The notes under the pieces were generated by a model. The model did no database searches. It was not told where the DNA came from and saw only the letters and a program-made list of their open reading frames with translations. Position numbers and translations under genes: made by a program. From Diphasiastrum complanatum (Eukaryota; Streptophyta; Lycopodiopsida; Lycopodiales; Lycopodiaceae): 64,000 nucleotides of DNA. The DNA lies in contig MU832134.1 of the NCBI GenBank assembly GCA_029204225.1, forward strand, positions 1-64,000, read 5' to 3'. Below, piece after piece: positions 14,297-16,368 of this stretch (position 1 is its first letter; every line of letters begins with the position of its first letter).

Positions 14297-16368
14297 ATGG
14301 CTTGGACGAAGCAAACCGCTAGGCTTACAAGTTTCGTTCAACCGTCCCATCCCCAGACATATGAGCCAGTACGTCCCCAAAGACGCGGTAGACCTAGCCA
14401 TCCATGGTTGAGGGACATCAGGGCCGTGCAGAGGAGCACCAAACCTCTGATCCCGAAAGCAGCCTTCTACCGGGCTGTGAGAGAGGTTACACAAGACATG
14501 ACCACCCATCTGCCATAGAGAGAGAGAGAGAGAGAGAGAGAGAGAGAGAGAGAGAGAGAGAGAGAGAGAGAGAGAGAGAGAGAGAGAGAGAGAGAGAGAG
14601 AGAGAGAGAGAGAGAGAGAGAGAGAGAGAGAGAGAGAGAGAGAGAGAGAGAGAGAGAGAGAGAGAGAGAGAGAGAGAGAGAGAGAGAGAGAGAGAGAAAG
14701 CTTTATTAATGTCTTTTCCATGCCAAAAGTGTAGTGAGGTGGAATATTACTACATTGGAGGCCCTCCATACTGCATACGAGGATTTCTAGACAAAATTGT
14801 TTGAGGATTCAATGTTGTGCTCCATTCATGGCAAGAGGGTGACACTGATGCCCAAGGACATGCTTCTTGTCATGAGGCTTCGAAACACCTATGACAACAT
14901 TTTTAAGTTTGGATTCACACAGAGGAAAGTTCCTCTTGAAAGGGAGTCTGTCCCACCCCGCAAAAAGAGAAAGCAAGCACAGCCCAAGCGTTCGCAACCC
15001 AAGCCTAGGTCTCCCAGCTCTTCACCCTCACCTCCTCCCATTAGAAAAGATCTGGCTAGTACGTCCACAATTCCACTGGTTGAGAGTCCTCCTGTAACCT
15101 CTAATCTTCAGCCGCACGATTCTCCTTCTATACATGAGGATGACCTAAATACAGTGCTAGACATGATTGTTTCTCATGTTGATGCAACTGATACAGAGTT
15201 GCACATCAGACTTCCGAATGAACCTAAAGACACATTTTTTGAGTTTGAGAGGTACATTGTGTTTGACCTGTATATAGCCAAGAAAATAGATGATCTCGGA
15301 GGGGAGTTTATGTTTTGTATAGACGATATTAATTTTGCAATGCATATCAAAGACCTGCATTGTAGGGAGCGAAAAGAGAAGACCTCATATATCTTAGACA
15401 CAGTAGTTGAATCTGCTTGTGCATACTATGTGCATAAATATACATATACAGTCACAAAGGAGATTTTTGTTGTATCTCCATTTTTTGGGCATCTGTTGAA
15501 TAAAGAGAGGAAATCCAGAAGGCTCTTCAGGCACACCAGCAAAGAGGCATCAATGTTCATCATTGCATACTGTTCAAAGTAAGATAGTTTCTTCTTGTAA
15601 TATCTGTTTTCTGTAAGATTTTTCTTTTGGAAACTCTTATAGATTCTAGTAATTCATTGCTTGTCTCTTTCTGGCAGCAAACATTGGAGTGTGCACGTCA
15701 TATCCATGAAAGTGGATTCGACTGGAAGCTGCACACATGTGTGCATGACAATGAATTCTTTGCATGCCACCCATTCCATGATTAAATCCATGTACAAAAG
15801 GATGGTGGAGCTATTGCCCAGGCCGGATGGGTTGGTTGTAAATACCAACATAGAGGTTGTTGATGCAAAGGTAGAAAGAGTCTTTTTACGTATTTTATTT
15901 GCATGATGGCATGTAGTTTAGAATTATATTGAATTATAATTTAACATTTTTTCGTTGTGATTTCTCAGTCTTCGCAACAAGATGATGCTTTCAGCTGCGG
16001 ATGGTATTCAATCTGGAATGTTAAATCGTTCTTGGATTGGTACATGGTGCAACCTCTTGATGCTAGTATCCGTGAGGTATTTTTTTCAATGTTCCAGTAT
16101 CCTGATGACATATTGTTAACTTTGTGAATTTATATATTTTAAAACATTGGCTAATACATACCACACTCGATTTTTTTTTTTGCAGTTCCAATGTCCTGAG
16201 GTATTAACAAATTCGATTCATCAGTATCGGCATGAAATGTCAAAAATTTTACTATCATGTGCAAGGCCCTACAAGCATGAAGGTGCCTCGGATGAACCTG
16301 CTAGGGGATCCGTGGATGAGGTTACGGTGCTCGAGGATATGCCTCAAGCACCTTTGATTGAAATGTAA
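14297..16368 (+). pseudogene. Element copy A gene 3: histone H3 fused to a Ulp1-like (C48) cysteine protease
   Basis: The start at 14297 gives MAWTKQTAR, the H3 tail (MARTKQTAR, K4 kept). WLRDIRAVQRSTKPLI and REVTQDM match H3 alphaN and alpha1. After a (GA)n run, VRWNITTLEALHTAYEDF and LFEDSMLCSIHGKR, then VTLMPKD, match alpha2, loop 2 and alpha3. A basic, Pro/Ser-rich linker (PRKKRKQAQPKR) follows. The C48 domain uses exons to 15578, 15678-15870, 15969-16076 and 16186-16368, all GT-AG. It has HWSVHVIS (catalytic His), MNSLH (Asn where Asp is usual) and QQDDAFSCGW (Gln and Cys). From about 14794 to the stop the frame is open. The (GA)n run and stops near 14517 and 14788 disrupt the histone part. 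Ulp1 enzymes cleave SUMO-type proteins; what this one cleaves is unknown. Confidence 0.85.
14517..14697 (+). repeat. (AG)n microsatellite inside the histone H3 coding part
   Basis: About 90 AG units start just after the codons for alpha1 (…TTHLP) and end before the alpha2 codons (VRWNITT). In H3 the corresponding join is the short loop before alpha2, so the run sits within the gene and shifts the frame. Arg-Glu repeat frames through it are artefacts. Confidence 0.95.

Follow-up and report, generated by a model that had tools for sequence, protein, structure and literature searches.

Two groups of described transposons come closest to the element reported here. In the VANC-Ulp1 proteins (KIU, Kaonashi) of Vandal/non-TIR Mutator-like elements (MULEs), the anti-silencing protein VANC is fused to an Ulp1 domain (PMC13317346), and in the fungi Pyrenophora and Pseudocercospora an H3-like gene, H3L, has been amplified by hAT transposons (PMC3538342, PMC6710886). 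The Pyrenophora H3L has an altered tail (PMC3538342), and the H3L-bearing hAT copies of P. fijiensis were inactivated by RIP (PMC6710886). Ulp1 domains in plant transposons and H3-like genes in fungal hAT elements were therefore already on record. Like VANC-Ulp1, the present element combines a chromatin-acting accessory gene of a transposon with an Ulp1 domain; according to the available text on that system (PMC13317346), the partner there is VANC and the transposase is of the MULE type, whereas here the partner is an H3 fold and the transposase has a RAG1/Transib fold. With the fungal elements it shares the carriage of an H3-like gene by a DNA transposon, but those elements have a hAT transposase and a separate H3L gene, and the available text of the two reports mentions no protease (PMC3538342, PMC6710886). 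These separate genes also add a caveat to the first-pass annotation of this locus, which knew of no histone-fold partner for a captured Ulp1 domain. No H3-Ulp1 fusion was found in the literature, with most subscription papers and Repbase Reports lying outside the search; a fusion of H3 and C48, carried by an element with a RAG1-fold transposase in a plant that is probably seedless, appears to have no precedent there and is the surprising content of the locus.

The stretch of DNA analyzed (the window) is 64,000 nucleotides long. Its first copy of the element, copy A, has the following features.

8709..17636, forward strand: transposon copy A; left terminus CATTACATGAGTTCC (position 8709), homology to full-length siblings ending at 17636
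9376..12095, forward strand: gene 1, decayed DDE transposase of the RAG1/Transib fold clan in several exons (from sequence, the fold of the relative P0010 and motif spacing)
12313..13313, reverse strand: gene 2, conserved protein of unknown fold, divergent from the H3 gene (C-terminal piece 12313-12626 by eye)
13314..14296, no strand: intergenic region between the divergent gene 2 and H3 gene, with an array of E-box-type sites
14297..14512, forward strand: H3 N-terminus (MAWTKQTAR), alphaN and alpha1 (read from the sequence, with Pfam and PDB matches)
14517..14697, forward strand: (GA)90 microsatellite inside the H3 part; none of 14 sibling stretches showed it
14734..14910, forward strand: H3 loop 1, alpha2, loop 2 and alpha3 (exon model and Pfam)
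14911..15219, forward strand: basic Pro/Ser linker (read from the sequence)
15220..16368, forward strand: predicted C48 domain (Ulp1/SENP-like), four exons; His codon at 15682-15684 and Cys codon at 15996-15998
16803..17675, reverse strand: gene 4, conserved protein (sequence comparison), C-terminus perhaps ubiquitin-like

The left end of copy A was shared by its relatives: besides copy A itself and its twin on contig C2, 35 of 38 rows started within positions 405-411 of the query (40 of 3008 candidates scored). On the right, homology ended at 17636 against three of five fetched siblings, and the other two fetched stretches had no match there. Because homology to full-length siblings stops at this point, the right end of copy A is missing or displaced. 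The first-pass annotation overlooked both the decay of copy A and a second, strongly diverged copy in the window, copy B.

38095..43378, forward strand: copy B, recognized by protein-level matches in the same gene order
38095..40338, forward strand: gene 1 (protein-level match)
40188..40838, reverse strand: gene 2 (protein-level match)
41263..41684, forward strand: H3 part (MRTKQTA...), free of a GA tract, with an in-frame stop of its own
41685..42737, forward strand: linker and truncated C48 part, with the HWS exon kept and the frame broken
42846..43378, reverse strand: gene 4 (protein-level match)

Terminal repeats were looked for at the ends of copy B and were not found.

When the residues on either side of the GA tract were joined (14297-14512 and 14734-14910), they matched the Pfam family Histone (PF00125) with an E-value of 2.4e-25 and passed its cut-off, as did each half alone (2e-07 and 1.4e-07). 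Against solved H3 chains in the PDB the match reached 1.5e-22, and the top chain was an H3.3 aligned over residues 11-123. The profile search named in the first-pass annotation was thus run, and the H3 similarity that it had claimed is real. In copy A the H3 part is split by the (GA)90 tract and by an in-frame stop at 14788-14790. A chance match to H3 was ruled out by the Pfam and PDB values and by the 117 genomic candidates described below. A reading of the tract as an intron was dropped because siblings and copy B read through the same spot without it; a run of (GA)10 or longer occurred in 0/14 sibling stretches, and in eight of these the coverage of exon 1 was 80% or more.

Between the H3 folds of the element copies and canonical H3, 32-48 of 84 aligned residues were identical. 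The likeness comprises the fold, the alpha2-loop2 block and the start of the N-terminal tail, and the difference lies in what follows that start and, in the copies with a fused protease, in a long C-terminal extension. The canonical tail beyond residue 9 (the context of K9, K14, K27 and K36) is absent and unrelated basic, Pro-rich sequence stands in its place. The start MARTKQTAR was exact in three of the nine copy A siblings with a printed start and nearly matched in the others; it reads MAWTKQTAR in copy A and MDRRKQTRR in the copies c7 and c22.

The join between H3 and protease was followed through the 1.745-Gb plant genome assembly that contains the window, with the frame of copy c11 (H3 fold, linker and N-terminal half of the protease) as the query; the tail start of c11 lies behind a stop and was excluded. 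Both parts lay in one stretch in all 117 scored candidates (10,199 at first look). The aligned rows were 75-94% identical, the query itself aside, mostly over residues 1-311. By our own count 28 of the 117 rows, query included, were free of stops and 89 held one, and some rows are likely duplicates of one locus. Copy c7 was open from the start codon through exon 1, with later exons continuing in frame in the splice model; the same exon was open in c22, and among the siblings of copy A it was unbroken in one of 14 (L047). The subfamily models are only 33% identical overall, yet the fusion is kept, together with His-Trp-Ser, Asn-Ser and Gln-Gln..Cys-Gly-Trp. The annotated fusion in one frame is thus borne out by the genomic candidates and by the open exon 1 of c7, c22 and L047; at the level of sequence it is real, in one frame across many copies, and the alignments indicate more than a hundred copies of this H3-protease jumping-gene family in one plant genome.

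Because all scored candidates align across the join, the arrangement is more than chance. That captured H3 and Ulp1 fragments came to lie side by side by accident in a dead element would agree with the broken state of copy A, but it is highly improbable given the same arrangement in 117 of 117 candidates and in subfamilies a third identical, and given dN/dS ratios below 1; a version in which one recent duplication spread the accident does not fit identities of 75-94%.

Genome-wide, 153 H3-fold matches were obtained (150 of 6325 candidates scored), 13 of them host-H3-like and ∼140 scoring 83-110 bits. For ten H3 loci, selected because their frames were open, ∼10 kb of flanking sequence was retrieved on either side; these loci and L076 were of the transposon type, so that an annotation unaware of repeats would inflate the histone gene count of this genome. 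Another gene of the element was found by tblastn near all ten. With the shared termini, these neighbors agree with the placement of the gene in a mobile element by the first-pass annotation.

The exons of the fusion gene after the GA tract (14794-15578, 15678-15870, 15969-16076 and 16186-16368) could be spliced in one frame with GT/AG borders in the splice model. As a single sequence the C48 part matched no C48 family of Pfam at E<=10 and nothing relevant in the PDB, where one unrelated row appeared at 0.43. A five-row profile (A4) was then built from copies A and B, c7, c22 and L047, two of its rows not being letter-exact. All eight of its PDB matches at E<=10 were C48 proteases, with SENP2 best (1.4e-5), followed by an Ulp1-like protein, Ulp1 and SENP8, and the His-Trp, Gln and Cys-Gly motifs of the element lined up with theirs in the same order. 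The relationship to C48 is, by this profile comparison, real but distant. The His of the triad was present in 5/5 rows, the Gln in 4/4 and the Cys in 3/4 of the rows that reach that exon; the row of copy B stops short of it, and c22 has Tyr at the Cys position. Unlike SENP2, Ulp1 and SENP8, the element proteins have an N-terminal H3 fold, and the position of the usual C48 Asp is occupied by Asn in 5/5 rows. Of the four-exon C48 domain first annotated, the one-frame splicing and the profile match stood, with the correction that the usual Asp position reads Asn, and the profile check proposed for it succeeded with five rows against the PDB and failed with a single sequence against Pfam. Since Asn replaces Asp throughout and c22 is without the active-site Cys, protease activity of the element protein is uncertain.

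The transposase was placed by fold. The predicted structure of the relative P0010 matched the RAG1/Transib fold clan in a fold comparison, and on this model the transposase of the element belongs to that clan, which has an RNase H fold. The placement comes from fold comparison only, as the transposase profile A3 found nothing among PDB sequences at E<=1; a short C-terminal profile, A5, returned 11 rows, of which ten were weak RAG1 matches (E 0.33-0.85) behind an unrelated immunity protein at the top (0.28), and lends support only. Of 103 pattern matches, 100 had 19 residues between Asp and Cys. The H(4)H and Glu motifs were found in c4157, c7, copy A and P0010, the last exon being reached by only two of 135 fetched proteins. 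The likeness to RAG1 and Transib consists of the fold and the motif spacing.

The CMCT clade, which unites EnSpm/CACTA, Mirage, Chapaev, Transib, Plavaka, ESTA and Lanisha, is described as having CA..TG termini and a transposase of RNase H fold in which C(2)C and H(4)H precede the last Glu (PMC12730594). The element shares this fold, its second Asp and last Glu enclose C(2)C and H(3-4)H, and it has 5'-CA..TG-3' termini (CATTA..TAATG). It differs from the clade, as far as the available text describes it (PMC12730594), in its H3-C48 gene, which is not mentioned there, in showing none of the 2-5 bp target-site duplications in any of four copies with both ends (a small sample read by eye), and in having no match to Transposase_21 (PF02992). 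That family was matched neither by two genomic gene 1 cores (E<=10) nor by the scanned pieces of the window (E<=1), and it was absent among the 25 families listed, of 27, for 42 relatives (E<=1); as a positive control, it scored 228 bits elsewhere in the same genome. A classical CACTA/EnSpm identity was rejected on this contrast, and a Mutator (MULE) identity on the 9-bp target-site duplication, which occurred in 0/4 copies. The link first drawn to Ulp1 capture by Mutator and CACTA elements was right about a mobile element, but by these tests the element belongs to neither of those two classes. Among viral contigs, 48 pattern matches to the transposase were obtained and none was confirmed. A dense cluster of classical CACTA matches (PF02992) lies at 48.6-50.2 Mb of contig C1, near the middle of this 101.6-Mb contig and perhaps pericentromeric. 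Lanisha transposons may be the lineage to which this element belongs; they were reportedly described in Repbase Reports in 2020 and perhaps come from a moss, to judge by the authors.

RAG1/Transib elements end in CACAGTG/CACWATG. The present element differs from them in its CATTA ends, in the 5-bp duplication, of which none was seen, in its plant host and in the additional H3-C48 gene. Three copies of the A group had ends CATTACAGGAGTT with a near inverse at the other side, 9.5-9.7 kb apart by coordinates, and c7 had a perfect 35-bp terminal inverted repeat with a span of 8.68 kb. When the left end of copy A was folded as a single strand, there was no signal (z -0.12). Of 18 flanks fetched, 15 had a clear end, and a pyrimidine stood five bases before the left end in all of these; two pairs among the 15 were identical. 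A flank fetched earlier, C23, had no such pyrimidine.

This pyrimidine bears on a reading in which H3 is an insertion-targeting module that would steer the transposase complex to certain nucleosomes, perhaps of H3 or CENH3 type, while the protease would act on the transpososome and not on silencing. Also in its favor, the element H3 folds carry some residues of plant CENH3 type (LIP-A-F, ED, DS). The signal is even-handed, however: at the 36-37 columns that separate host H3 from an Arabidopsis CENH3, six sequences had 6-13 H3-like and 7-12 CENH3-like residues. With the flank C23 also standing against it, we regard insertion targeting as rather unlikely.

The element copies fell into two lineages. 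In lineage 1 the order was gene 1 (+), gene 2 (-), H3-C48 (+) and gene 4 (-) in copies A and B, c7 and c11, and c22 had a different layout. Lineage 2 consisted of c156, c17, c8, c4157, c5, c21 and c19; gene 4 was near four and gene 1 near three of these seven, in another order, and visual inspection of c4157 showed a relative of gene 2. Left ends of lineage 2 started with CATTAG in all three that were read. The H3 of lineage 2 began with MARTKQTAR in five of six printed copies, c5 being off by one residue, and continued through Ser/Arg repeats and a long Pro-rich (poly-Pro) insertion into the fold, with ∼300 residues between tail start and fold. It ended soon after the fold with no protease in frame, and among the six printed copies only c156 was stop-free in the printed stretch. 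From its sequence, lineage 2 (loci c156, c8, c21 and c4157) represents a second, unfused design of a transposon H3, and because the fused protease is lacking there, fusion is not required for every member.

Selection was measured as Nei-Gojobori dN/dS among copies that share ancestry, leaving out the six of 14 copy A siblings that cover <80% of exon 1. In the A group (nine sequences, copy A included) the ratio was 0.56 for the N-terminal part, the weakest constraint, 0.40 for the H3 fold, 0.47 for the linker and 0.30 for the N-terminal half of the protease (1.28 and 0.75 in the other frames); for protease exon 2 it was 0.41 (15 sequences). The A-group constraint on H3 is not frame-specific because frame +1 (0.37) was as low as the true frame, the remaining frame giving 1.22. 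Among c7, c22 and c11 the ratio was 0.11 for the H3 fold, the strongest constraint on this fold, 0.50 for the linker and 0.36 for the protease. The H3 fold of lineage 2 (six sequences) gave 0.29 in the true frame against 1.27 and 1.58 in the others, and the stretch before the fold 0.76 in frame against 0.62 and 0.86.

Retention of the H3 start, exact or nearly so, in two lineages in which the rest of the tail is replaced suggests that the element exploits either this start or the chaperones of H3. In one such use the ARTKQTAR tail would be a decoy that titrates readers and writers of the H3 tail or histone chaperones, and the protease would be secondary. The exact or near tail starts among the siblings of copy A suit this idea, as does the start of lineage 2, kept exactly in five of six copies despite its distance from the fold and the missing protease. 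A strict need for the tail is disfavored because c7 starts with MDRRKQTRR and the N-terminal dN/dS of the A group is 0.56; the c7 group with this altered start nevertheless has the strongest fold constraint, and we consider a decoy unlikely.

Gene 2 had no Pfam match at E<=1; its stretch 12627-13313 is common to copies A and B and also to c11 and c7. The intergenic region beside it (13314-14296) held 21 CACGTG/CACATG/CATGTG sites against a mean of 0.75 after shuffling, and such sites were also rich in c7 (nine) and c11 (ten), with none in copy B. The C-terminus of gene 4 may be ubiquitin-like, as a weak model (pLDDT 44.5) showed a beta-beta-alpha-beta-beta pattern. If so, the protease could mature or remove this element-encoded protein, and the H3 part would give nuclear retention only. 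Matches to gene 4 in both lineages are in keeping with this, but the low model score, the PDB search (no ubiquitin-like fold, one unrelated row at 0.56) and a sub-threshold Pfam match to PB1 (0.13) make gene 4 a very unlikely substrate.

Copy A is flanked at 4182-8592 and 20535-22935 by retrotransposon-type frames (Ty3/gypsy-like and Ty1/copia-like by eye). The window stretches 8300-9700, which includes the left flank of copy A, 15157-18298 and 46131-48081 are near-identical to contig C2 near 60.64 Mb, and beyond the point that matches 18298 this contig continues as the reverse of 48081-46131, by rearrangement or an assembly difference. Open stretches at 44124-46360 (forward strand) contain a recurring WP.YL..F....D....YF.WL-like motif; no Pfam family was matched by 45452-45922 at E<=1. 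An open frame at 27561-28434 (reverse strand) resembles a plant heptahelical, adiponectin-receptor-like protein.

In a protein search with a profile of c7 and copy A, the H3-C48 fusion was not found whole in another named species. All 14 matches rested on the H3 part, and several were gene models that link canonical H3 to other sequence. One protein, P0125, has MARTKQT, an H3 fold with a c7-like LIPRAPF stretch and a long C-terminal continuation, and its alignment reaches the start of the linker, which hints at an H3-C48 fusion in a different organism but does not prove it. With copy A as the query, the search returned P0001 alone, an H3 that bears a long tail; P0133, P0134 and P0001 combine an H3 fold with a long extension at the N- or C-terminus.

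The locus is probably a decayed copy of a four-gene transposon with a RAG1/Transib-fold transposase, one gene of which encodes an H3-C48 protein that would aid expression or insertion of the element as a chromatin-placed deSUMOylating factor. Its H3 part, with the MARTKQTAR-type start and H3-type fold, would bind histone chaperones, H4 or readers of the H3 tail, and this binding would place the protein on chromatin. There silencing factors or proteins of the transpososome could be stripped of SUMO, or of a SUMO-like mark, by the C48 protease, and the element would stay expressed or insert more readily. The first-pass annotation had proposed a role in opening or marking chromatin for insertion or in countering silencing, and such a role is likewise hypothetical. 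VANC-Ulp1 (KIU) of the Vandal MULEs offers the closest working analogy (PMC13317346), with H3 taking the place of the chromatin-binding VANC part.

More tentatively, a RAG1-fold transposon lineage of seedless vascular plants may have evolved its own histone variant, with which the element would build or bind modified nucleosomes and rewrite host chromatin at its own copies or targets; in one lineage this variant would be equipped with a SUMO protease, in the other with a long Pro-rich insertion. If true, the transposon would encode a component of nucleosomes that has a deSUMOylase built in. Transposons are silenced via chromatin and several encode anti-silencing proteins; this family could let an element act on plant chromatin directly, and by tying a SUMO protease to H3 it would offer a practical way into SUMO-dependent silencing in plants. 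With its transposase, a fold that is most familiar from vertebrate immunity gains a plant lineage, within a wider clan (CACTA included) that is old and present in plants. An H3 fold kept across subfamilies only a third identical would amount to a natural experiment showing which features of H3 count when the host is not in control, and the family would make it possible to test directly whether selfish DNA can assemble nucleosomes of its own.
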